A stretch of 64,000 nt of DNA from Granulibacter bethesdensis (lineage in GTDB: Bacteria > Pseudomonadota > Alphaproteobacteria > Acetobacterales > Acetobacteraceae). Within the stretch, counting starts at the first letter, position 1. Each line of letters begins with the position of its first letter. The position numbers were made by a program, and so were the translations under genes. The notes under the pieces are model-generated. The model was not told the origin of the DNA, made no database searches, and saw only the letters and a program-made list of their open reading frames with translations. The stretch lies in NCBI RefSeq assembly GCF_001889525.1, contig NZ_CP018192.1, positions 2,626,742 through 2,690,741 of the forward strand, read 5' to 3'. Below are positions 1,038 to 13,701 of this stretch, in pieces.

Positions 1038-2080
1038 CTAATGCACTCCCTGAAAAAGTGATCACGTGTGCAGGTAATCAGCATCGAACGTTTGTGCGGA
1101 AAATCGAACTCGTATTCCAGCTTGTAACCGGATTCCTCACAGAGACGCAGCATATTGCTATGAGCGGCACTCGGTTCCCCAACGACCTTTCGTGTTCGGC
1201 AATCATCCAAAAACAGGCAATGCGTGATCGCACGGAACCATGCCAGCGTACGGTCGCGACCAAGATGGCGTTTTTCTCCAACCAGCACATGCCAGCCACG
1301 ATCATAATCATCGGCATCGTAATGCGGGCCGAGCCTGTCTTCCTTACCCCAATAGATCTCGAAATAGGTCGATGGCTCACCATCCAGTTCACCGATCACG
1401 GAGAATGCATGCGGATCAGCATCCATACGACGCAGATAGGCTTCATGCTTTTCAATCGGGCCGGCTTCATCCCAGAATTTTGCCACACGCGGCTGGTTCT
1501 GCCACATATGGAACAGTTCGAGATCACGGCCGATATCCAGTGCACGCAAGGTTAATTCATGCCCGGTTATGGCATCACGCCGTCGATAGAACACACCTTT
1601 CGGAGCAGGCGGACGTAACGGATGATCACGCCCATCCGCGAGCGCACGACGCAGAAGCGGCTGACGATGCGCAGGTGGACCGGCCTGCCAGAAATCCCGG
1701 TGCTGACGATGCCCCTGCCGGTACAGCAAAGCTGTGTTATCCCGTATCTCATGCACCGGGAATGATGCATCGGCAGGATCAGAAACCGATTCAAGAGAAA
1801 CTGAAAAACAATCAGCCCCTTCTGAAAAAGCATAATCAGCCAGGACATAGATCAGAAAATTTCTGTCCCTTTCCGGCATAGACCAATGCAGGCCGATGGC
1901 CTTGGCCATTTCCTCCTCAAAATGAAGGTGCGTATGAGCGACGACAGATCCATTAAGCAGTATGCTCAGTTCGCCTCCTCCCATGATCATGACAGAGCGG
2001 CCATGTGCATCCCGGAATGTCCAGACCGGGGCCATATCCTTAACCGGTAGCGCGACCGGATGCTCCAGAACACCACTCAT
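1034..2080 (-). CDS. IucB/RhbD-like siderophore GNAT acetyltransferase
   Basis: A 348-aa protein. The C-terminal half (about residues 170-345) is a GNAT-type N-acyltransferase of the siderophore class, with recognisable WQNQPRVAKFWDE and TYFEIYWGKEDRLG stretches; the N-terminal half resembles the extra domain of IucB, which is of similar length (about 315 aa). In aerobactin-type pathways this enzyme acetylates the N6-hydroxylysine side chain to make the hydroxamate. I start at the ATG at 2080 because it overlaps the stop of the upstream synthetase (ATGA, 2077-2080); the frame is open to 2200 but that part lies inside the neighbour. The stop overlaps the next synthetase in the same way. The middle gene of an iucABC-like order, it supports hydroxamate siderophore synthesis. 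Confidence 0.85.
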   Translation of the reverse strand: MSGVLEHPVALPVKDMAPVWTFRDAHGRSVMIMGGGELSILLNGSVVAHTHLHFEEEMAKAIGLHWSMPERDRNFLIYVLADYAFSEGADCFSVSLESVSDPADASFPVHEIRDNTALLYRQGHRQHRDFWQAGPPAHRQPLLRRALADGRDHPLRPPAPKGVFYRRRDAITGHELTLRALDIGRDLELFHMWQNQPRVAKFWDEAGPIEKHEAYLRRMDADPHAFSVIGELDGEPSTYFEIYWGKEDRLGPHYDADDYDRGWHVLVGEKRHLGRDRTLAWFRAITHCLFLDDCRTRKVVGEPSAAHSNMLRLCEESGYKLEYEFDFPHKRSMLITCTRDHFFRECIR

Positions 2081-3969
2081 GACTGCACCAGCGGATTTGG
2101 AACGGATACATAACTGGCAAGAGGGCTGGCAGTATCTGCGTTTTCGTTGACATCCCTCAGGTATGTCATCACATTGCCTTTCATCCAGATCGACGGACAA
2201 TCCAGCAGGTAGCGAATCACAGATGGATCACGCAGCCCATCATCGCTCATGGATTGAAGTCTTTGCCGTAAAATGCGTAGAAGTGCCTGTTCCTGTGCGA
2301 CTCTATCGAGCACAAGTGTATCAAGAACGCCGAATACGGAATTACCGATCAGATAATACCCGATCAGTTGCGGCCCCAATGCGGCATCGATGATATTATC
2401 TGTCCATCGTCCCAACTCTGGAACGTAAGTTCGTAGAGTCTCGATCATATCGGTTGCAATGGCCGTGCCCTGGCAATCACGGAACCAGGCCTGTTCGGGC
2501 CAGCCATTCCGCAGACCAAGCACGACATTCTGCTGATGGGCACTCATCATCACACCATGACGGGCATGGAGATACAGTACCGGCTCCATCAGAATAGCGA
2601 GGAAACGGCGAAACCATTCCTCCGCAACATCGGACTGGCTGCGTTTATCGCGTGTAGCGATCATGCGGATGATATGGCCCAGTCTGCTGGGAGCATTTCT
2701 GTCGAACAGATCATCCTGACAAAGCGTCGCAAGCATCGCAACATGACGACCACCTGCATGTACGCCCTTTGCTTTATCGGCGAAAGGATTATCCCTGAAT
2801 ACAACGGAACTTTCGACCATAACCTTCCCATCAAGCCCTCTCAGGGACAAATGAGCTGGTTCTTCGATCACTGAAAAACCCTGATAGCGGGTAAAGACAT
2901 CCCGACCGACCGGGCCACGCAACAGACGCGCCAGATGCAGGCCGCGATCAAGCTCACGCGGCAAAATTGTACGAATCGAATTGGTAATCCGCATCGATAG
3001 CGAGAACTTTATCATTAATGGAGACTGCGCACTCCATAGACTGCGCAGGGATGCAGTTGCACGGAATTGTGGCCCCATGACACCCAGATCGCGCAGCCGA
3101 TCCTCCATGCGCAGACTGGCAAGTTCGGGCAGGCACAAAAGTTGACCGGCTTGCCAGGGATGAACCGGTAACAAGGTCCAGCCTTCCGGGACGGCATGCA
3201 GTGCTTCCTGACCGGCATCGGTCGATGCAAGCATCTCTTTCAGCAGTGACTGTATGTCGGCCACGTGAACACTGTCGCCAATTACGTGATCCGGATGGAC
3301 TGCGAACCAACGTAACGCGAAGCTGTTGCCATGATCAGGCCCATACGCCGCATCTTCACTTTCAGAGAGGCCTTCACGGAATTTGGGTGCGGGATGAAAC
3401 GGATGACCCAGGATCAACCCCTGTTCCGCCGTGATAAAATCAGGCATACTGTCTGCCTGATCATGTGTTCTATATTGATGACTGAGCAAGGCGGCTGAGA
3501 CACGTTCGGCGCTGTCCATCACGCGCTTTCGGAAAGTCATCCTGGTCGGCAGGGATGCCGTCTGTGCAAAGGCCGTGTGATCCAGGAGAAGATCCAGCAG
3601 CAAACGCATATCCACCGATCGGATGGCACCATGACGCCTCAGCAAAGGCGGCCCCGCAAATCTGAAACGCCCGGTTTCAGTGGACGCGGCAAGCGGCAGC
3701 AGCAACTCCCCTTCCTGCAACAGCAGGGGAACTGAAATCGCACCTGCCGGACAATGCACATATGCACCACATCGTGATGCAGCTTCCTGCGGATCGAGCT
3801 TTTTCCAGCCGCGCCATTCACGCAGCACACCGTTCAGCAATGTCGTCGTTGCCATTCCGGCCTCAAAGGAACGACGTTCAATGCATGCTGACGTATCGCG
3901 GGTTTCCATGGCTTCCAGCACAGGCGTTTCCCTTTCTGTTGCATATCGTGCCGCTTTGCGGAGAATCAC
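2077..3969 (-). CDS. NIS siderophore synthetase, IucA-like
   Basis: About 630 aa, the first gene of the siderophore operon. Family motifs are visible: GHPFHPAPKFREG near residue 188, LLPVHPWQAGQ near 270, SMRITNSIRTI around 330 and HQQNVVLG near 476, which together form the ATP- and substrate-binding pocket of IucA/IucC enzymes. It should activate citrate (or a related carboxylate) and couple it to the hydroxamate made by the acetyltransferase. The frame opens with a GTG at 3969 only 14 bases from a Fur-like site. An in-frame ATG at 3909, preceded by GGAAG, would give 610 aa and leave room for a leader, so the start is uncertain. Divergent from the MFS gene across 46 bases. Iron repression through the shared intergenic site is likely. 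Confidence 0.88.
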   Translation of the reverse strand: MILRKAARYATERETPVLEAMETRDTSACIERRSFEAGMATTTLLNGVLREWRGWKKLDPQEAASRCGAYVHCPAGAISVPLLLQEGELLLPLAASTETGRFRFAGPPLLRRHGAIRSVDMRLLLDLLLDHTAFAQTASLPTRMTFRKRVMDSAERVSAALLSHQYRTHDQADSMPDFITAEQGLILGHPFHPAPKFREGLSESEDAAYGPDHGNSFALRWFAVHPDHVIGDSVHVADIQSLLKEMLASTDAGQEALHAVPEGWTLLPVHPWQAGQLLCLPELASLRMEDRLRDLGVMGPQFRATASLRSLWSAQSPLMIKFSLSMRITNSIRTILPRELDRGLHLARLLRGPVGRDVFTRYQGFSVIEEPAHLSLRGLDGKVMVESSVVFRDNPFADKAKGVHAGGRHVAMLATLCQDDLFDRNAPSRLGHIIRMIATRDKRSQSDVAEEWFRRFLAILMEPVLYLHARHGVMMSAHQQNVVLGLRNGWPEQAWFRDCQGTAIATDMIETLRTYVPELGRWTDNIIDAALGPQLIGYYLIGNSVFGVLDTLVLDRVAQEQALLRILRQRLQSMSDDGLRDPSVIRYLLDCPSIWMKGNVMTYLRDVNENADTASPLASYVSVPNPLVQS

Positions 3970-3982
3970 CTTGCGGCATATT

Positions 3983-4001
3983 GCAATTGATATTCATTCC
4001 T
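3983..4001. promoter_or_regulatory. Fur-box-like operator between siderophore operon and MFS gene
   Basis: The sequence GCAATTGATATTCATTCCT matches 12 of 19 positions of the classical Fur consensus, with the core TGATATTCATT nearly perfect. It lies in the 46-base gap between the two divergent genes, where a single operator could control both directions. The match is by eye; binding by Fur rather than another iron regulator is inferred. Confidence 0.5.
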
Positions 4002-4015
4002 AATTTAATGCTGAA

Positions 4016-5299
4016 ATGCAACCCCGGAACCCCTCCCTCTCTGCGGGCATCAGCCCTGCTGATCCAACATCACCCGATGTTATCACTTTGTCGTGCGCAG
4101 ATCGTTTCGGCTTTGCTTCGCTTGTCTGCTGTGTAGGGCTGACACAATCATCACTGATTGCATTTTTGCCGATTTTATCGATCAAAACAGGATTATCTGT
4201 TCTGTCACTTGGTATTGTTACCAGTTGTGGAATGCTGGCCATGCTTGGTGGTGCGCCTCTGGCGGGATGGCTGAGCGATCGGGCAGGTCGACGACAGACT
4301 TTGATGGCCTGCCTTGCCATTTTCTGCGTAGCCCAGCTTTTTCTGGCGGCCATTGTATCGGCTGCGATGAACGGGACTTTATCCCCTTCGCTCTGTCTCG
4401 GACTGTTGATGATATGCCGCCTGTTACATGGCATCGCGACAGGCGGCCTGCTTCCAGTGGCACAGGCATGGGTCGCCGATCTGACCGGAATTCAAGGTCG
4501 TATGGCTGGGCTTGCAGCCATCAGTGCCGGGTTCAGTGCCGGTCGGCTGGCGGGTCCGCTGCTGGTCTCGGCCACTTTACCGCTGGGGGCTACAATGCCG
4601 CTCTGGGTCATGGCGCTGCTGCCCCTGCCGCTCGGCAGCATCCTGTTACGCCGCCCGCCCCCGGAAAGCTGTCATAGGAACATCCGGCCCCGATCAGGGG
4701 CTGCATGCTGGCGCAATCCGGCGATTCTGCGGTTGCTGATATTGGCCGCCATCGTCAACATTGCTTTTGGTGCCTTGCATTTCGTGCTTGGCCCCTTGTT
4801 CCAGCAAAGGCTGGGCTGGACCGCACAGATGGCAGGAATCAGGCTGGGCTGGATCACCGCCCTGATGGCAGCCCTGATGCTGGCAAACCAGATGAGCATC
4901 ATTCCGCGGCTGACCGCATGGCCACGGCACACTCTGGCGGTCGGCATAGCCGTGATCTGGCTATCCGCACTCTGTCTGACCTGCGGGCAGGGCATGTGGA
5001 GTCTTGGGGCCGGTGTCTGTCTGCTCGGGCAAGGGCTGGCCTTATCGGGTCCGGCCTGCACGGCCCTGGTCAGCATTGCTGCCGGAGGAAGACAGGGGGC
5101 CGCCTCCGGGCTGTTATCCTCCGTTCTGACGCTGGGGTATGCTGCGGGAGCCACGTTGGGCGGTTTTCTGTTCACCTGGGGGGATGCATGGCCCGCTATG
5201 ACCGCACTGGTGATCCTGCCGCTGATCCTGCCGTTTTTCCCGCTTCCGGAATCATGGACAAAGCGGTCCGATGATCGGCAGATAGCAGGCGATGCGTAA
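4016..5299 (+). CDS. MFS transporter next to siderophore genes
   Basis: A 427-aa major facilitator superfamily permease with about 12 hydrophobic segments and the MFS motif GAPLAGWLSDRAGRRQT between the second and third helices. Divergent from the siderophore synthesis operon, sharing a Fur-like site, and overlapping the FhuF-like gene by 8 bases. In such settings MFS proteins usually export the newly made siderophore, or less often import a ferric siderophore across the inner membrane; sequence alone does not tell which. The start at 4016 has only a weak ribosome-binding site. No TonB-dependent outer membrane receptor is in the window, so the uptake half of the system must lie elsewhere. Confidence 0.85.
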   Translation: MQPRNPSLSAGISPADPTSPDVITLSCADRFGFASLVCCVGLTQSSLIAFLPILSIKTGLSVLSLGIVTSCGMLAMLGGAPLAGWLSDRAGRRQTLMACLAIFCVAQLFLAAIVSAAMNGTLSPSLCLGLLMICRLLHGIATGGLLPVAQAWVADLTGIQGRMAGLAAISAGFSAGRLAGPLLVSATLPLGATMPLWVMALLPLPLGSILLRRPPPESCHRNIRPRSGAACWRNPAILRLLILAAIVNIAFGALHFVLGPLFQQRLGWTAQMAGIRLGWITALMAALMLANQMSIIPRLTAWPRHTLAVGIAVIWLSALCLTCGQGMWSLGAGVCLLGQGLALSGPACTALVSIAAGGRQGAASGLLSSVLTLGYAAGATLGGFLFTWGDAWPAMTALVILPLILPFFPLPESWTKRSDDRQIAGDA

Positions 5300-6050
5300 A
5301 GACGAAGACATAGCGGCATGGTGCGAGGCGCGTATGGCCTCTCCCGCCGGGTTTTCTCCGGCGGATGACATGGACGTCTCCCTCCTGACAAGGCGGGAGA
5401 CACTGGCCCCCGGGATAGAGCGATTCGCCAAAACCCTGCCGGCAGGCGCCGATCCACGCGCCATCGGATCACTCTGGAGCAAGGCCTATACGCGGGCCGT
5501 GTTGCCGCCGCTGTTTATTCTGGCTATTCGGGACGGACGCAACGCTCTTAATCCCGCACAGACCGTGCCACCCGGACTGGTTCTTCTTAAGGATCGCCCG
5601 GATCAACTGGCACTGGATGCAGCCACCCTGCCACGTCAAACGCCTGAGCAGATCATGACCATCGCGCTGGGGCAGCATATGCAAAGCGTATTCACCGCGT
5701 TGCGGGACTGCACCGGCCTTTCTCCGCGCGTGGCATGGTCCAATGCGGGCAACATGGCTGATTTCCTGTTCCGACGCATGGCCGAAACGCCATCATTGGC
5801 CGATCAGGCCGCACAGTATGAGGCCCTGATCATGGAGCCACGCCAGACCCCGTGGTTTCCACGCCAGAACTGGCTGCATGCACCGTTGCGAACCGTTTCT
5901 GTCCTGCTGGACGGAGAAGCGATTCCGTTGCGCCAGCGCCGGATATGCTGTCTGAGAGACAAGGTGCCGGGCATGACACTTTGCTCTACCTGCCCCAGAT
6001 TATCGGAGGAAGAGCGCCGCGCGCTGGTCGGTCAACGGCACCGCCATTGA
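5292..6050 (+). CDS. FhuF-like siderophore ferric reductase
   Basis: A 252-aa protein whose C-terminus carries CCLRDKVPGMTLCSTCP, that is CC-x10-CxxC, the unusual four-cysteine [2Fe-2S] ligand set of the FhuF family. FhuF-type proteins reduce ferric iron in hydroxamate siderophores in the cytoplasm so that it is released. The start codon lies inside the end of the MFS gene (8-base overlap), so they form one transcript. This completes a synthesis, transport and reduction set. Length is near that of E. coli FhuF (262 aa). The rest of the protein is only weakly recognisable, so the call rests on the cysteine pattern plus context. Confidence 0.82.
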   Translation: MRKDEDIAAWCEARMASPAGFSPADDMDVSLLTRRETLAPGIERFAKTLPAGADPRAIGSLWSKAYTRAVLPPLFILAIRDGRNALNPAQTVPPGLVLLKDRPDQLALDAATLPRQTPEQIMTIALGQHMQSVFTALRDCTGLSPRVAWSNAGNMADFLFRRMAETPSLADQAAQYEALIMEPRQTPWFPRQNWLHAPLRTVSVLLDGEAIPLRQRRICCLRDKVPGMTLCSTCPRLSEEERRALVGQRHRH

Positions 6051-6468: not shown

Positions 6469-8559
6469 ATGGCCATTCTGCCCATCCTGCTCTGCGCCGC
6501 CACCTGCCTGGGACTGGCGGGGGAATGGCTGATGGCCGCACCGCCGCGGCAGGATCGGCGGATTCTGCCCGCACGGCTGAGGCGGCTGGTATTGTACCAT
6601 ATCGTGCTGTGTGCCGTGGGGGGTCTATCCTGCCTGTCTGTTCTGCTCGGGGGCGCGTCATGGAATGGAACAGCATGGGTTGGCGGTTCCCTGCCCGCGC
6701 TGGTATCGGATGCCATTGCCCTGCGTCTGGGGCTGGACGGATTTTCCGCCTTTACGGCGCTAGCCGGATTTTGTGCGCTCGGGCTGGCCAGCACCACCGG
6801 GCTGGATCGACCCGGAGAAGGAGCCACGCGGTTGGCCTTTGTAACAGCCGCGTTGATGCTGACCGTCATGGCGGCCGATGTCATGACACTGGCAGGGGGC
6901 ATCGCTTTGCTTTTAGTCGCCCTGTGGGCCTGCCCCACCCATGATGGGGCGTCCCCCGGCACGGAAACGAACACGTCCAGCCCGGCCCATACCGTGCCCC
7001 ATTCGGGGAATGCGGCTGCCATTGTGGGAATTCCGCTGCTGATCATCTCTACGGTCATGCTGATGCAGCACGCCTCTCCCGCAGGTGGGGGTCCGGTACA
7101 GGCCGTCGGGTCAGCCCGGCCTCTGGTCTGGATTGCCTTGTTACTGCTGACCATCGTCGTTCTGACGACGATGGTTGCCCTGCGCACGCCCTCCTCCGAG
7201 CGATCCCGGATCGTGACGGAGGAGCACCCTTCGGGGTTGGAACCGACCGCCCCGGATCTTGCTGCCATCACCCCTGCTCTGCCAGTCCAGCGCAGCCCTG
7301 CCCCCGCCCTCGCCACTCCGGCGCAGATCGTCCGGCCCGCCTTGCAGGTGATTGTGCCGGTTTACCTGCTCGGGCGGCTGGGACTCGACTTCCTGCGTGA
7401 AGCGGCGGGACCGGGAGAAAGCACTCCGCTGATGCTGGCGGGAGCGATTCTGGCCTTGGCCGGCGGAATCAGCACTTTGCGGGGACACAGCATTGGCAGC
7501 TGCGTGAACGGAATGGCAGACAGCCAGACCGGCCTTGCGATTCTGGGATGCGGGCTGGCCGTAGCCGCCATGGCGGTTGATCTGCCCGATCTTGCCAGCC
7601 TTGCCCTGGCTTCCGTCCTGATCATCGTCCTGTCAGCCGCCCTGCTGATGCCAGTGCTGGGGACCGGTGCCACACTGATCGAGGAAGGGGCCGGCACCAC
7701 CATGCTGGACCGGCTTGGCGGCACCATCATCGGGATGCCACGCATCGCTTTACTGACCGGCGGAGCCTGCCTGGCCAGCGCAATGCTGCCGCCTTCCCCG
7801 CTTTATGCCGGACGCTGGATGCTGGTTCAGGCCCTGATCGGCGGCCAGAGAATTCAGGATGCCGGTCTGGATGCCCTGCTGACGCTCGGACTGGTCGCCA
7901 CGGCGCTGGCCTCGGCATTGGGGATGGTGGCGGTACTGCGCCTGCTCTGCATCGCCATTCTCGGCCGCCCCCGTGCGCCACGGGCCGCCGCCAGCACGGA
8001 GCCGCGGCGCCCCGCCGGCCTACGGGCCATGCAGGCAGGGCTTGCGGCCTGTGTCGTGGCAGGGCTGATCCCCGGCCCTGTCCTGCGCCTTCTGCACGGG
8101 TCGCTGATTGCGCTGTGCGGTCATACCATGGATGATCGGGCTGGCTGGATCGGTATCAGCGCACAAGTCGACAGCATGCTCAGCTACACCCCGCTGTGGA
8201 TCGCGCTGGCGCTGATCTCCGGCACCGCCCTGCTGCTGCGCTTCCTGCACGGGCGGCGCAGCACGACCCGGAACGCCGTGCCATGGAATGATGGCGATGC
8301 GCCGCCGCCGCCCTGGCTGCCCTTCGGCGATCCGGCCACCCAGCCTGACCCTGATTCGGTGGCCGATACTTTTCTGGCCCCGCTGCCGCCTCTGAAACCC
8401 ACCCCTCCGGCCCTGTCCGGCCTGTCGTCACGGCTGCAGATGATGCTGACAGCCATGCTGGGCCGGGCAGAACGTTTCATACCGGCCGGCGCCTCTGCCG
8501 GGCTGCTGGCAGTGCTCTGTCTGCTGCTGGCCATGGCCGCTCTGGAGGCACGGCCATGA
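6469..8559 (+). CDS. HyfB-like membrane subunit (NuoL/M/N family), degenerate
   Basis: A 696-aa polytopic membrane protein, first gene of a six-gene operon; ribosome-binding site AAGGGG eight bases before the ATG. It aligns by pattern with HyfB/HycC, the antiporter-like subunits of hydrogenase-4 and formate hydrogenlyase: a late segment with LDRLGG...GMPRIALLTGG and LPPSPLYAGRWMLVQALIGG matches the family's conserved helix-12 region. The lysine-bearing helices that carry protons in the family (regions equivalent to HDLKRLLAYSS and NHALFKSLLF) read as HSIGSCVNGMADSQTG and ASVLIIVLSAALLM, so the usual lysines are absent. It overlaps the next gene by ATGA. Proton pumping is therefore doubtful. 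Family call good; function unknown. Confidence 0.75.
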   Translation: MAILPILLCAATCLGLAGEWLMAAPPRQDRRILPARLRRLVLYHIVLCAVGGLSCLSVLLGGASWNGTAWVGGSLPALVSDAIALRLGLDGFSAFTALAGFCALGLASTTGLDRPGEGATRLAFVTAALMLTVMAADVMTLAGGIALLLVALWACPTHDGASPGTETNTSSPAHTVPHSGNAAAIVGIPLLIISTVMLMQHASPAGGGPVQAVGSARPLVWIALLLLTIVVLTTMVALRTPSSERSRIVTEEHPSGLEPTAPDLAAITPALPVQRSPAPALATPAQIVRPALQVIVPVYLLGRLGLDFLREAAGPGESTPLMLAGAILALAGGISTLRGHSIGSCVNGMADSQTGLAILGCGLAVAAMAVDLPDLASLALASVLIIVLSAALLMPVLGTGATLIEEGAGTTMLDRLGGTIIGMPRIALLTGGACLASAMLPPSPLYAGRWMLVQALIGGQRIQDAGLDALLTLGLVATALASALGMVAVLRLLCIAILGRPRAPRAAASTEPRRPAGLRAMQAGLAACVVAGLIPGPVLRLLHGSLIALCGHTMDDRAGWIGISAQVDSMLSYTPLWIALALISGTALLLRFLHGRRSTTRNAVPWNDGDAPPPPWLPFGDPATQPDPDSVADTFLAPLPPLKPTPPALSGLSSRLQMMLTAMLGRAERFIPAGASAGLLAVLCLLLAMAALEARP

Positions 8560-9515
8560 CGGGAAACATCTCGGGAAACATCTCGGCCAGCTTCTTTTCC
8601 CCCGCACTGCATATCGTGCTGCATATCGTGCTGCTGGCCCTGCTGGCGCCGCTGGTGTCCGGGATCATCACCAGCATCCGCATCCGGGCCAATGGGGGCG
8701 GCAGTGGGGGCGGCTGGCTGTCCCCCGCCGCGCCTTACACATGGCTCCGGGCGACGATGAAACACGGCATTGTCATTCCCGCACAGGCAACCAGCCTGTT
8801 CATGGTCCTGCCATGCGTCTCCCTGGTTGCAACCGCGCTGGCCGCCTTCCTGACGCCTTCCTTTCTGATCGACGGCCCTGTGACCGGAGAAGGCGACGCC
8901 ATCCTCATCCTGGGCCTGCTGTCACTGTCCCTGATCGCCAGAATCATGGGGAGCATGGATACGGGGCTGAGCCAGAACAGTATCGGCACGCTGCGACAGG
9001 GCGGAGAGGTTCTGTGGATGGAGTTGATTGTAACCCTCAGCCTCTCCGCCCTGACGATGCTGGGCGGAAACCCGGTCCTGACAGCCCTGCATACGACCGG
9101 GATGATCTCCGGTGGCACCTTGCTGATCTCATTGCTGCTGCCAGGCCTGTGCCTTGCCGCGCTGGCCGGAGCAGGGATGTTGCGCACGCCATCAGAAGAC
9201 ATGCCGCATCTCTCCGGCCCGCTGCTGGCCATGGCTTCTTATGAACGGTCCCTGCGTCTGTTGACCTGGATCAGCGTCATGGCGATCGTTTTTCTGCCTT
9301 TTGACATGATCTCCCTTCAGGCCGGCCTCCTGCACTGGGGCTTCGCCATTCTGACATGGGGCGGCAAAATCCTGTTTCTGGCCGCTCTGCTGGGTCTGGC
9401 GCAGGCGCTGCTGCCTTTTCCGGCGGCCGGACGGGGAGCTGCGTTCCTGCTGCTGGGCAGCGTCTTTACCCTTCTGGCCGTCCTGTGCCTGCTGGCGGGA
9501 CAATATCCGGCATGA
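8556..9515 (+). CDS. HyfC/HycD-like membrane subunit (NuoH family)
   Basis: A 319-aa, roughly eight-helix membrane protein related to HyfC/HycD/NuoH, the subunit that anchors the peripheral arm of complex I-like enzymes. Residues around MGSMDTGLSQNSIGTLRQGGEVLWMELIV-like positions 130-160 and SYERSLRLLTWIS near 230 resemble the family's quinone-side loops, though weakly conserved. Start overlaps the stop of the upstream gene (ATGA) and its own stop overlaps the next gene. The first 30 codons contain two perfect 12-base tandem duplications (8561-8584 and 8609-8632) that repeat GNIS and LHIV in the protein. Part of the degenerate Ehr-type complex. Confidence 0.75.
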   Translation: MTGNISGNISASFFSPALHIVLHIVLLALLAPLVSGIITSIRIRANGGGSGGGWLSPAAPYTWLRATMKHGIVIPAQATSLFMVLPCVSLVATALAAFLTPSFLIDGPVTGEGDAILILGLLSLSLIARIMGSMDTGLSQNSIGTLRQGGEVLWMELIVTLSLSALTMLGGNPVLTALHTTGMISGGTLLISLLLPGLCLAALAGAGMLRTPSEDMPHLSGPLLAMASYERSLRLLTWISVMAIVFLPFDMISLQAGLLHWGFAILTWGGKILFLAALLGLAQALLPFPAAGRGAAFLLLGSVFTLLAVLCLLAGQYPA

Positions 9516-10213
9516 CCATCACACCCGGCACCATTTTCATCCCGCTTCTGGCGATGATCCTGCTCTCCGCTATGATCGCCGCGCTCTGCACCCGGCTTCG
9601 GGCCGCGCGACAGGCGGTATTGGCTCAAGCCTTGCTGGTAACAATCGTGGCCGCGGCAAATGCCTCGTTAACGGCTTTCTGTCTGCCTGATCGCCCGGCC
9701 TGGCCCATGGCCGGAGTTGCTCTCACGGTGCTGCTGGCAGGGTTGTTTCTGGGGCATAGATGGCGGAGCAGGCCGCTCGCCTTGTCATCAGAACCGGATC
9801 TCAAGACTGATCAGCCAACCCTGCCCGATACAGTCTGGATGATGGGAACCGGCCTGATTATCGCCTTGGTCGTCTCCGGCGGCATCGGATTGACGCCTGT
9901 TGTCTCTCACGCTCCGGTATCCGCCGCGACGCTACCCATAGTCGCGCCCGATCCCGCAACGGTGATCGCCATCAGCCTGACGATGGGGATGCTGTCTCTG
10001 CTATGGCTGGCCCGTGATAGCAGGGTTGGTTTCCTCGGCCCGGCACTGCTTCAGGCCGGGCTGGCAATCGCACTGGTCATGAGTGCGCTGGATACTCACC
10101 GGCTGATACCGCTCTACACCCTGCTGGGTCTGCTGCCCGCTTTGCTGACGGAAGAAGCCTTCCGCCTTCTGCGCCAGCGGGAAGCAAGGGCTGAGACGGA
10201 GGCTGCACCATGA
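9512..10213 (+). CDS. HyfE-like membrane subunit (NuoK-related)
   Basis: A 233-aa membrane protein, third in the operon, in the position and size range of HyfE (216 aa), whose C-terminal half is NuoK-like. About six hydrophobic segments are visible, with a short charged linker near residues 90-105. I start at the ATG at 9512, which overlaps the preceding stop by ATGA; the frame is open upstream but lies inside the neighbour. Sequence similarity is modest, so the assignment leans on size, topology and gene order. Stop overlaps the next gene by ATGA as well. Confidence 0.65.
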   Translation: MTITPGTIFIPLLAMILLSAMIAALCTRLRAARQAVLAQALLVTIVAAANASLTAFCLPDRPAWPMAGVALTVLLAGLFLGHRWRSRPLALSSEPDLKTDQPTLPDTVWMMGTGLIIALVVSGGIGLTPVVSHAPVSAATLPIVAPDPATVIAISLTMGMLSLLWLARDSRVGFLGPALLQAGLAIALVMSALDTHRLIPLYTLLGLLPALLTEEAFRLLRQREARAETEAAP

Positions 10214-11619
10214 CGGATCACGCCCCCGATTGGCTTTCCCTTCTGACCGATCCGGCATGGTGGCCTTGGCTGCTGCCACTGCCGTCGCTGTTGACCGCCG
10301 CACTGAGCATGGCGCTGTCCGGCTGGCAGGGAGCAGCCTGGGCCGGTCTGGTATCCGCCTTTCTGACGCTGGGGCTGGCAGCTGGGGGGATGGCCGCTGG
10401 GGGGATGGCAGAGGCTTCATCGACCACCATGGCATCTGATCCGGCCGCGGGAGGAGCGTTGCTCACGGCCCTGATCAGCGTGATGGCCGCCACATCCTGG
10501 CTTGGCTGGTGCGCGGATGAAGTCGCTGCCATGCGTATCTCCCTCGCCCGATTGAAAATCCTGGCAGTCGGGCAGCAAACCGCATTGGCGGGAATTCTGC
10601 TGGCCTTTGCCCCCTCTCCATGGGCAGGCTGGGCCGGGATCAGCATCGCCATAGCCGTGCTGACTGTTTTGACCGCTTTATTCGGCTCTGCATTCCCCTC
10701 TTCGGCCCTATCCCGACGGAAAGAGACGCTGACAGTCGGGATCATGGCCTGTCTGCTGTCCCTGTTCGGCCTGATCATCCTTCAGGCGTCCTCCGCCGGC
10801 CTCCCTTTTTCCGGACAGGGGCACGGTCTGGTCCCCACCATGCCAGGCCTGATCTGCCTTGCCGCCGGGCTGGCCGTTCCTGCAGGCCTCGCCCCGGTGC
10901 ATCAATGGCTGCGAGAGACCGTCAGCGCCCTGCCACCGCCGGGACAAGCGCTGATCACCGGCGGGCTGCCTGCTGCCGCCCTGCTGTTCATGCTGAAACA
11001 AGCCGGCGCGGGCATGCCGCCTTTTATCTATGGCACGCTGGGGATTCTCTCCGTGCTGGCCGGTGCGGTGCTGGCGATCCGCTCCAGCGTCACCCTTTCA
11101 TGGCGCTGGAGCGGACCACTCTCCTGTCTCGGCGGCGGCTGTCTGGCGGGGGGGAGTCATGGTCTGCTCTATCCGGCGCTCGGGCTGCCGGCCCTGTGTG
11201 CCTGTCTGCTGCTCGACGGGCGAGCACGGCAGATCGGCGCTGTCTCCGATCATACGCCCTCTCCGCCGGGGCATGGCGGGTTGGATGCATTGCGACTCGC
11301 GGCCCGTTTCAGTCTGGCCGGACTACCGGGGGGCACTCTCGCGGGACTGGTCGCCCTGCTGTCCGGGACTGCCCTGACGCATCCTCTTCTGGCCCTGCTG
11401 CTGGCGGCCGGGCTTGGAAGCAATGGCTATGCACTGCTCCGTCAGGCTCCGATGCTGCGACCCGCCCGAAGACCACCAACCCCCTCACGCGCCTGTCTGC
11501 CGCTTGATATGACCGCAACCCTGCCCGCCGTGATCCTGCTGCTGACCGGCATCCTGCTGGGGCTTGGCAATGGGCCATCCCGCTGGTTCACCTCTGCCAT
11601 CGCTGCGGTGACGCAATGA
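10210..11619 (+). CDS. HyfF-like membrane subunit (NuoL/M/N family), degenerate
   Basis: A 469-aa polytopic protein, second antiporter-like subunit of the complex. A family signature remains in GLAPVHQWLRETVSALPPPGQALITGG near residues 225-255, the counterpart of the HxWLPxAHxxAPxPVSA helix, and in ADEVAAMRISLARLKILAVGQQTA early on. The protein is shorter than NuoL and carries a 15-base perfect tandem duplication with one end mismatch at 10381-10410, giving GGMAAGGMAE. ATGA overlaps at both ends tie it to its neighbours. It should sit in the inner membrane; whether it moves ions is unclear because the expected lysine pattern is weak. Confidence 0.75.
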   Translation: MTDHAPDWLSLLTDPAWWPWLLPLPSLLTAALSMALSGWQGAAWAGLVSAFLTLGLAAGGMAAGGMAEASSTTMASDPAAGGALLTALISVMAATSWLGWCADEVAAMRISLARLKILAVGQQTALAGILLAFAPSPWAGWAGISIAIAVLTVLTALFGSAFPSSALSRRKETLTVGIMACLLSLFGLIILQASSAGLPFSGQGHGLVPTMPGLICLAAGLAVPAGLAPVHQWLRETVSALPPPGQALITGGLPAAALLFMLKQAGAGMPPFIYGTLGILSVLAGAVLAIRSSVTLSWRWSGPLSCLGGGCLAGGSHGLLYPALGLPALCACLLLDGRARQIGAVSDHTPSPPGHGGLDALRLAARFSLAGLPGGTLAGLVALLSGTALTHPLLALLLAAGLGSNGYALLRQAPMLRPARRPPTPSRACLPLDMTATLPAVILLLTGILLGLGNGPSRWFTSAIAAVTQ

Positions 11620-13169
11620 GTCTGGACTCCCTGTTGCAGGGTGCCGACACCGAGGCAACCCACCACGATGCCGCCACGCATGCCGTGGCACGGAGGCTTC
11701 TGACCGCCTCGCTCTGGCAGGAGCTGGCAGCCAGCACCCAGGCCGGGTTGCTGGCGCTCTGGGCCGACCAGGCGCGCTGCCATGCCTTGTATCGCACCGC
11801 GCATGGCATTCTGCCGGTGGCAATCCCGATCGAAGGGGGGCGCTTCCCCGCGCTTTCCCCCTTCCGTCCAGCCGCCGCATGGCAGGAGCGGGCCATCCGC
11901 GATTTATGGGGCTATGAGGCCGAGCACGGCGTGGATAGCCGCCCATGGCTCGATCACGGCAGATGGCCGATGAGTGCCCCGCTTTCCGCCCGGCCCGGAC
12001 CGCCTTTGCCACCGCCCGAGCAGGCGGAGTGGCGGATGGCCTCGCCCTTCGCCTCCTCCTTTGTCTCGTCCCGGCCCGATAGCACGCTGCACGAGCGCAG
12101 TATTGGGCCTGTTCATCCATTGATGCGGGAGCCGGCACAGTTGCGCCTGCACCTGCATGGCACCCTCATCCGGCAGGCGGAATGGCGGCTCGGCTATACT
12201 CATCGCGGGATCCCGTGGCTGATGCGCGGGAAATCCCTGCGGGACGCGATACGGATCGCGTCCCGGATCACCGGAGATGCAGCGCTTGCCCACGGTCTGG
12301 CCTTCGCCCGTGCTGCTGAGGCCGCCTTGCGGCTGGAGCCGCCTCCCCGCGCCCTGCTGCTGCGTGGCCTGATGAATGAGCTGGAACGCTGTGCCGTCCA
12401 TCTGCATGTCCTCGCCGCCACAGCCAGCGCCGCCGGAACCGACACTTATGCCGCGAAGCTGTCCGCATGGCGGGAACGTCTGTTGCGCGCCATTCAGGAT
12501 GCCCTTGGCAGCCGCATGATGATCGACCTGCTTATTCCTGGCGGGGTGCTGACCGATCTTCTGGACGGCACCGCGTTGGAAACAGCCTTGCAGGCCCTCG
12601 CCCGGACCATGCCGGAGCTGATCGAAGGCTATGAAACGGCTGCCAGCCTGAGTGGACATGGACTTTGCGCCTGTCTCCGTGGATGCGCTGTCCTGTCCGA
12701 GTCGGATGCTGTTTCTCTGGCCGTGCCCGGCCCCGCCGGACGCGCATCGGGTCGTCCCCATGATCTGCGCACCACCTGGCAGCAGGCTCCGCATGGTACG
12801 GTGCACAGGCTGGTGCTGGCAAATGGCGACGCGGATGCCAGAATGCGGGTCCGTCTGGCGGAAATTCAGGAGAGCCTACGGCTGGCACTGCTGTTCCTGG
12901 AGTCCCTGCCGGTCGGACCGATTGCCAATCCCATGCCGATCGGTACAGGCAATGCCAGCGGAGAGGGGTATGGCGGGGTGGAATCGGCCCGTGGCGCATG
13001 CTGGCACTGGCTGCGCATCGAAGGCGGAATGGTGGTCTCCGCCCATGCGGCCGATCCGTCATGGCGGCTGATTCCCGCTATTGAGGCCGCTCTGCCCGGC
13101 ACCGACATTGATCTGCTGGGGGTGGCGCTGGCCTCTTTCGCGCTCTCGCCCGCCGGGGCTGATCTGTGA
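11616..13169 (+). CDS. HyfG/HycE-like large subunit without Ni-Fe ligands
   Basis: A 517-aa fusion of a NuoC-like N-terminal part (about residues 1-130, with ERAIRDLWGYEAEHGVDSRPW) and a NuoD / hydrogenase large-subunit part (from GPVHPLMREPAQL near 165; GYTHRGIPWLMRGK follows). True hydrogenases bind Ni and Fe through two CxxC motifs. Here the N-terminal one reads RITGDAALAHG and the C-terminal one ADPSWRLIPAI, with no cysteine in either, so it cannot hold the usual Ni-Fe site. This matches the Ehr (energy-converting hydrogenase related) class, whose function is not settled. ATGA overlap with the upstream gene; 7-base gap to the next. No maturation protease or hyp gene is present. Confidence 0.82.
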   Translation: MSLDSLLQGADTEATHHDAATHAVARRLLTASLWQELAASTQAGLLALWADQARCHALYRTAHGILPVAIPIEGGRFPALSPFRPAAAWQERAIRDLWGYEAEHGVDSRPWLDHGRWPMSAPLSARPGPPLPPPEQAEWRMASPFASSFVSSRPDSTLHERSIGPVHPLMREPAQLRLHLHGTLIRQAEWRLGYTHRGIPWLMRGKSLRDAIRIASRITGDAALAHGLAFARAAEAALRLEPPPRALLLRGLMNELERCAVHLHVLAATASAAGTDTYAAKLSAWRERLLRAIQDALGSRMMIDLLIPGGVLTDLLDGTALETALQALARTMPELIEGYETAASLSGHGLCACLRGCAVLSESDAVSLAVPGPAGRASGRPHDLRTTWQQAPHGTVHRLVLANGDADARMRVRLAEIQESLRLALLFLESLPVGPIANPMPIGTGNASGEGYGGVESARGACWHWLRIEGGMVVSAHAADPSWRLIPAIEAALPGTDIDLLGVALASFALSPAGADL

Positions 13170-13176
13170 GGCGCTC

Positions 13177-13701
13177 ATGAGATGGTTTCCGTCCCTTCGT
13201 GCTTCCCATCCAGGGCTGTGGGAGGATGCCGCCAGCCTGCCGCATACGGAAACCGTCGCCGCGCTGATAGCCCGCCGCAGAAGCAGCGCAAGGCCAAGGC
13301 TGGGACAGGCCCTGTCCATCCTGCACGCAGAGAGCGGCGGCGGCGGCGCCTGCCTGCTTGAATTGGAGGCATTGCGCGCCGCGCCCGGCCTGCTGGCTCG
13401 TCATGGATTACGGTTTGTCGGCTCGCCGCTGCATGCCGATATCCTGCTGATCACCGGCTATGGCTGTCGCAACCTGACGAGCGCCATCCATCAGGCATGG
13501 GAGGTGATGCCAGGCCCGCGATGGGCCATCGCCGTCGGTGACGGAGCCGCAGGGGATGGTCTGCTGCACGGAAGCTATGCCAGCACCGGCAGTATGGAAG
13601 AGATCCCTCTTGATCTGGTCATTCCAGGCAGTCCACCTGCAGCGGATACAATCCTGTCCGGCCTGCGCGCCCTGGTCGCAGCGAATGCTGATCCGGTCTA
13701 G
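13177..13701 (+). CDS. HyfI/HycG-like small subunit lacking Fe-S ligands
   Basis: A 174-aa NuoB/HycG-family protein, last gene of the operon. Fold landmarks are clear: HADILLITGYG, AIHQAWEVMPGPRWAIAVGDG, GSMEEIPLDLVIPGSPP. In functional members four cysteines hold the terminal [4Fe-4S] cluster (GSCNGC, GACG, GCPP). Here these read GGGGAC, GAAG and GSPP, leaving one cysteine, so the cluster must be absent. I start at ATG 13177; the open frame upstream overlaps the large subunit gene. Together with the large subunit this shows that the soluble arm of the complex has lost both catalytic metal sites. Confidence 0.82.
   Translation: MRWFPSLRASHPGLWEDAASLPHTETVAALIARRRSSARPRLGQALSILHAESGGGGACLLELEALRAAPGLLARHGLRFVGSPLHADILLITGYGCRNLTSAIHQAWEVMPGPRWAIAVGDGAAGDGLLHGSYASTGSMEEIPLDLVIPGSPPAADTILSGLRALVAANADPV

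Follow-up and report, generated by a model that had tools for sequence, protein, structure and literature searches.

An Ehr-type operon of Granulibacter bethesdensis lacking Ni-Fe ligands, most N2-type cluster ligands and the canonical channel residues is under purifying selection

The window analysed here is a 64,000-nucleotide stretch of the Granulibacter bethesdensis genome (contig NZ_CP018192.1, positions 2,626,742 to 2,690,741), in which six intact, tightly packed open reading frames (ORFs) on the + strand, at positions 6469-13701, follow the order hyfB-C-E-F-G-I, a standard gene order among energy-converting hydrogenase-related (Ehr) complexes. Judged from its sequence, this operon is Ehr-type by descent. 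Besides the Ni-Fe ligands, it lacks three of the four cysteines expected for an N2-type iron-sulfur cluster and the membrane residues of the canonical proton path, and its six genes are under purifying selection. We give an even chance to the reading that the operon encodes an Ehr descendant which is no longer a redox-driven ion pump and has been retained for a non-redox function based in the large subunit. A more specific form of this reading, which we put forward as a tentative possibility, is a complex I-shaped six-subunit assembly that would have neither redox cofactor nor proton path and would be selected for a non-redox job, as the end of a stepwise conversion (Ni-Fe site, then pump, then last cluster) whose stages may be visible across living Acetobacteraceae.

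An earlier note on this DNA had described six overlapping genes for HyfB-, HyfC-, HyfE-, HyfF-, HyfG- and HyfI-like subunits of an Ehr-type complex, and had found it more degenerate than a simple loss of the Ni-Fe site. The Ehr assignment and the subunit names are borne out by family matches, gene order and alignment (HyfE by gene order alone), and the degeneracy goes further than was described, since the N2 cysteines and the membrane proton-path residues, the two stronger facts reported here, were absent from that note. The overlaps are real at the first four of the five junctions (4 nt each); at the fifth, the small-subunit ATG at 13177 lies 7 nt past the large-subunit stop. The features are the following:

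6469..8559, + strand: HyfB-like antiporter-like membrane subunit, 696 amino acids (NCBIfam hydrogenase-4 subunit B at 8.2e-31, under the model's curated cut-off)
8556..9515, + strand: HyfC/NuoH-like membrane subunit, 319 amino acids (PF00146 at 5.7e-5, under cut-off)
9512..10213, + strand: membrane subunit at the HyfE position, 233 amino acids (no family match; gene order alone)
10210..11619, + strand: HyfF-like antiporter-like membrane subunit, 469 amino acids (gene order and alignment with relatives; sole family match hydrogenase-4 subunit F at 0.075)
11616..13169, + strand: HyfG/NuoD-like large subunit without Ni-Fe ligands, 517 amino acids (PF00346 at 1.2e-22)
12264..12293, + strand: former first Ni-Fe motif of the large subunit (RITGDAALAH, against RVCGICGFAH in HycE)
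13177..13701, + strand: HyfI/NuoB-like small subunit, 174 amino acids (PF01058 at 1.8e-12)
13342..13353, + strand: former N2 CxxC motif (Gly56, Cys in 114 of 114 other rows; Cys59 kept)
13543..13545, + strand: third N2 cysteine, now Gly123 (alignment of small subunits)
13630..13632, + strand: fourth N2 cysteine, now Ser152 (alignment of small subunits)

Cluster ligands and the Ni-Fe site

The small subunits of the relatives carry the motifs C-x-x-C, G-x-C and G-C-P-P, whose four cysteines match an N2-type [4Fe-4S] site. In the window's genus these positions read Gly56, Cys59, Gly123 and Ser152 (3 of 3 genomes). All four cysteines are present in 155 of 162 distinct Ehr small-subunit rows, and the other seven comprise the three rows of this genus (one cysteine of four), three with a single Cys-to-Ser change (G056 and G218, both of one genus, and G001; G and L numbers are our handles for genomes and loci) and one truncated row (L094). 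This count leaves out duplicates, six loci that were truncated or in which the ORF taken was not the small subunit (L047, L061, L062, L144, L156 and L191), and L251, a complex I NuoB scored CCCC, which the script's total of 163 had included. As three of the four N2 ligands are lost, the electron wire is probably cut.

The changes are local. We call a column near-invariant here if at least 95% of the rows outside the genus agree in it (114 other rows for the small subunit, 113 for the large). Of 25 such columns in the small subunit the window retains 18; the seven changes fall on C56, C123 and C152 and on D126, G127, F130 and P156, the latter four within 7 residues of a lost cysteine. In this alignment the losses are focused at or beside the cluster ligands, a pattern that does not read as general decay. 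An AlphaFold2 model of the small subunit (33-row alignment) reached a predicted local distance difference test score (pLDDT) of 87.2 and a predicted template-modelling score (pTM) of 0.84.

Twelve loci at first gave no small subunit. Three of them (L169, L172, L220) run into a contig edge, L116 is still without one, and for the remaining eight (L065, L194, L209, L210, L214, L215, L221, L222) the small subunit was found elsewhere in seven genomes (G022, G037, G008, G085, G062, G046, G001). An Ehr small-subunit gene that stands apart from the operon and keeps its cluster cysteines was seen at L225, L228, L230, L231, L233, L236, L237, L223 and L224, loci that belong to G001 (with one Ser), G022, G008, G085, G037, G046, G062, G059 and G311; the displaced gene lies on the same contig, far apart, in G022, G046 and G311, and on different contigs of draft genomes in the others. 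At positions 12094-16069 of L053 (G170), about 4 kb, including a 956-residue ORF, separate the small- and large-subunit genes.

The window's large subunit has no cysteine in either Ni-Fe region, as the earlier note had said. Among 116 distinct large-subunit rows (the window, its two congeners and relatives), both cysteines of the first motif occur in none and one of them in a single row (L060), and the C-terminal CxxC occurs in 0 of the 114 rows that reach the C-terminus (a single Cys is there in 56). No HyfH-like gene is found among the six operon genes, again in agreement with the note. Its reading of these two losses as signs of novelty does not hold: the relatives also lack the Ni-Fe cysteines and the operons of annotated plasmid relatives also lack HyfH, so that both losses are ordinary for Ehr. 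The hyp maturation genes had been reported missing nearby, and HypD is absent from the whole genome (0 of 1 genome; the same search was positive in 4 of 14 control genomes).

Of the 47 near-invariant columns of the large subunit, the window retains 46. The near-invariant charged residues include H196, R217, E255, E257, R258, H262, R300 and D304, and further R376, D383, R385, D405, R409, E416, E450 and E456. An insertion peculiar to the window's genus (residues 344-357, window 12645-12686) contains CACLRGC (351-357), the clearest Cys-rich stretch. With one of these cysteines replaced by Arg in G100, the insertion does not count as a conserved metal site; no conserved Cys-rich stretch able to rebuild a site was seen, and a hydrogenase with displaced cysteines was rejected. 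A search of 100 Acetobacteraceae genomes, one for each genus and the window's own among them, found the Ehr large subunit's N-terminal domain in 80 (in one of these only at 6.5e-4), while the 391 of 397 returned by the large-subunit search mixes in complex I NuoD and is not an Ehr count.

The membrane arm and its relatives

In the HyfB alignment, the relatives' Glu in transmembrane helix 5 (TM5), Lys in TM7, Lys in TM8 and Lys in TM12 correspond to Ala146, Pro254, Ile295 and Met394 of the window; in HyfF, the TM5 Glu, TM7 Lys and TM12 Lys correspond to Ser145, Pro224 and Leu329, and in HyfC the Glu-rich loop of canonical relatives is deleted. The relatives in these alignments include L049, which itself lacks the motifs, plus a few single exceptions. 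The canonical Glu/Lys columns align with the antiporter-like subunits of the membrane-bound hydrogenase (MBH) and of formate hydrogenlyase (FHL). Given the loss of these residues and of the HyfC loop, proton translocation of the complex I type is unlikely.

Eight self-defined membrane motif patterns were scored over the 116 rows of the large-subunit tree, with at least 1000 amino acids of membrane ORFs required. The window's clade, called pump-less here for its missing motifs, has 38 rows, 35 of them with enough membrane ORFs, and none of the eight motifs was found in 34 of these 35 (the window and its two congeners included). Outside the clade, 67 of 78 rows had enough membrane ORFs, with at least four motifs in 56, one to three in nine and none in two. 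The pump-less set includes loci of Acidisphaera, Rhodopila and Rhodovarius, and genomes of 1.9-2.7 Mb; the subgroup that holds the window has tree supports of 0.918 and 0.949.

The pump-less Ehr of other Acetobacteraceae (such as L049, L055 and L105) resemble the window in gene order where complete, and in having neither Ni-Fe ligands nor channel motifs. They differ in the small subunit, for the group mostly keeps the cluster ligands, except for the single Cys-to-Ser changes named above, whereas the window's genus has lost three of four. The GSPP form of the fourth N2 position, as in the window, occurs in L203/L235 (G056) and L234 (G218), in the same genus as L049; here another pump-less lineage may be starting to lose the cluster.

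In three small-genome relatives (L055, L057, L058) the cluster lies downstream of genes that look by eye like those for leucyl aminopeptidase and DNA polymerase III chi, with an aldo/keto reductase-like gene (also named by eye) upstream in L055 and L057. This setting suggests descent in place.

Comparison with described systems places the operon within the family and sets it apart. In the definitions given in parts of PMC6349859, PMC3569383 and PMC10284858, and in a similar description in part of PMC10432482, Ehr complexes have a large subunit related to that of group 4 hydrogenases and without the Ni-Fe ligands. The window holds such a large subunit in a HyfB/C/E/F/G/I operon without HyfH (HyfE by position only), and lacks two Ehr-typical features, the four N2 cysteines (one is left) and the channel Glu/Lys, the latter missing from the pump-less group as well. 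Four N2-type cysteines in the small subunit are general in the relatives compared, and we count them as part of the definition of the family. The six-gene Ehr of alphaproteobacterial plasmids (Rhizobium sp. SRDI969 and Bradyrhizobium sp. Ash2021) have the same gene order, no HyfH and a large subunit 36-37% identical to that of the window over its length, also without Ni-Fe ligands, but keep the four small-subunit cysteines and the antiporter Glu/Lys; an Azospirillum record shows five of the six genes, its gene table being incomplete. With formate hydrogenlyase and hydrogenase-4 (group 4 [NiFe]), the likeness is in the large subunit, whose Ehr profile matches HycE (7z0s_E) at 6.7e-73, whereas the Ni-Fe Cys pairs, a HyfH-like subunit and a genomic HypD are missing. 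With respiratory complex I, the NuoB/D/H plus antiporter-like architecture is common, and the profile matches Nqo4 (2fug_4) at 9.7e-57; the operon has no NADH-module gene, and the residues aligned to Nqo4 His38 and Tyr87, which we take to be the quinone site, are not His and Tyr.

Selection on the six genes and their surroundings

Two congeneric genomes, G157 and G100, carry the same six genes (large-subunit identity 97% and 95%). In pairwise codon models of the window against G157 and G100, in that order, the ratio of nonsynonymous to synonymous rates (omega) was 0.21/0.20 for B, 0.31/0.40 for C, 0.33/0.26 for E, 0.36/0.29 for F, 0.10/0.16 for G and 0.34/0.42 for I. In neither comparison does omega reach 1 for any of the six genes, twice the log-likelihood difference (2 delta lnL) from omega = 1 ranges from 5 to 94, and there are no internal stops. 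The six genes are under purifying selection. The earlier note had argued for selection from the intact, coupled frames and had named a dN/dS near 1 as a sign of decay; the values obtained, 0.10-0.42, agree with the former and are not near 1. Among the neighbouring genes, omega was 0.19/0.14 for the siderophore synthetase-like gene, 0.25/0.28 for the major facilitator superfamily (MFS) transporter, 0.12/0.13 for FhuF, 0.13/0.11 for a glycosyltransferase, 0.02/0.04 for infB and 0/0 for rbfA.

Pump-less relatives that bear the cluster gave omega of 0.08 (synonymous divergence, dS, 0.25) and 0.12 (dS 0.21) for the large subunit and 0.09 for the small subunit (dS 0.14; one pair, 124 codons), the other pairs being saturated. 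By this comparison, constraint on the large subunit stays in the same range after cluster loss, and constraint on the small subunit looks relaxed in the window's genus.

Three other accounts of the locus were rejected. Chance ORFs or a frame artefact do not fit the joined six genes, for which omega is 0.24 (G157) and 0.26 (G100) in frame, against 1.5-3.2 in the other two forward frames. A second Ehr copy lending its small subunit was not found in the genome (a single contig of 2.69 Mb), which holds two NuoD-family and two NuoB-family places, one of each in this operon and the others being separate complex I-type NuoD and NuoB. A scan of viral contigs with the large subunit, one scan that reaches close relatives only, gave no relative, and viral carriage was rejected.

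Siderophore-type genes lie directly upstream at 2077-6050: an IucA/IucC-like synthetase on the - strand (2077-3969, named by eye), the MFS transporter (4016-5299) and the FhuF ferric reductase (5292-6050). A scan of the locus for promoters and terminators gave signals near the shuffled background.

Explanations and significance

In the explanation that we favour, a first step, common to many Acetobacteraceae, would have removed the Glu/Lys of the two antiporter-like subunits and the Glu-rich HyfC loop from the membrane arm, and a second, seen in the window's genus alone, would have removed three of the four ligands of the last iron-sulfur cluster. The large subunit may now be a membrane-anchored, non-redox scaffold or a ligand-responsive switch, with the small subunit retained for structure and the membrane proteins for anchorage. 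We favour such a role because the core of the large subunit, with its near-invariant charged residues, and the operon itself are what stays conserved; and since Ni-Fe ligands, three N2 ligands, the quinone-site-aligned His/Tyr and the channel Glu/Lys are all missing, coupling of redox chemistry to a pump is not expected. From these losses we infer that the complex, if assembled, would be a metal-free, complex I-shaped machine.

Several observations weigh against this explanation. E. coli HycC also lacks the TM7 Lys, so that single residue losses are no proof of absent pumping; L066, inside the pump-less clade, has 3 of the 8 motifs, and two rows without any, L052 and L107, fall outside the clade. 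The deep pump-less node has a support of 0.999 in one tree, and of 0.456 and lower without the long-branch row L066, and a single origin of the group is not certain. In the small subunit, Cys59 and Cys97 are kept in all three genomes of the genus, and a single Cys-to-Ser change is seen in three other genomes too. The weakest of the selection tests, I against G100, gave a 2 delta lnL of only 5, and we found no expression, protein or phenotype data.

Slow decay is to our mind unlikely. In this account the operon would have been useless since cluster loss, stops and frameshifts would be yet to come, and omega would be low in part because harmful membrane proteins are selected against. Some decay is possible, given that weak test and the relaxed omega of C, E, F and I, which at 0.26-0.42 exceeds most neighbours tested (0.02-0.28); the small subunit has roughly four times the omega found at similar dS in cluster-bearing relatives, a reference value from a single pair, and large subunits of the pump-less group evolve fast, the window's having a root-to-tip distance of 2.0 where the median is 1.04. 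However, all six genes are open in three species-level genomes, and the large subunit is as constrained as in cluster-bearing relatives and keeps its near-invariant residues.

The conserved Cys59 and Cys97 leave room for an unusual cofactor, with changed ligands (for instance Cys59, Cys97 and Ser152), or for another bound redox group, which would still move electrons. Serine can ligate iron-sulfur clusters, and the Cys-to-Ser changes in the three relatives are in line with this. We nevertheless regard it as quite improbable, as Gly stands at two of the three lost positions and neighbours of the ligands have changed as well; besides, L048 and L052 have a Cys at the Cys97 position together with all four ligands, so that Cys97 is not a specific replacement. 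More doubtful still is a kept membrane arm that acts as an uncoupled conduit for ions or small molecules, merely gated by the soluble subunits: HyfB is clearly constrained (omega 0.20-0.21) and membrane ORFs still stand beside the large-subunit gene across the pump-less group, but the known channel residues are gone and the HyfB-position ORFs are short (438-505 amino acids) in eight small-genome or related loci.

The function of the widespread Ehr complexes is unknown, as part of PMC10284858 states for comammox Nitrospira. The family is known; in the openly licensed literature, we found no report of the last-cluster loss in this genus or of the group-wide proton-path loss. A lineage whose large subunit is nearly unchanged after pumping and then the cluster were given up would indicate which part of Ehr carries the selected function, a question that becomes testable in tractable acetic acid bacteria. 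If the proposed non-redox role is true, this operon would be an example from nature of a complex I architecture put to new use without electron transfer.

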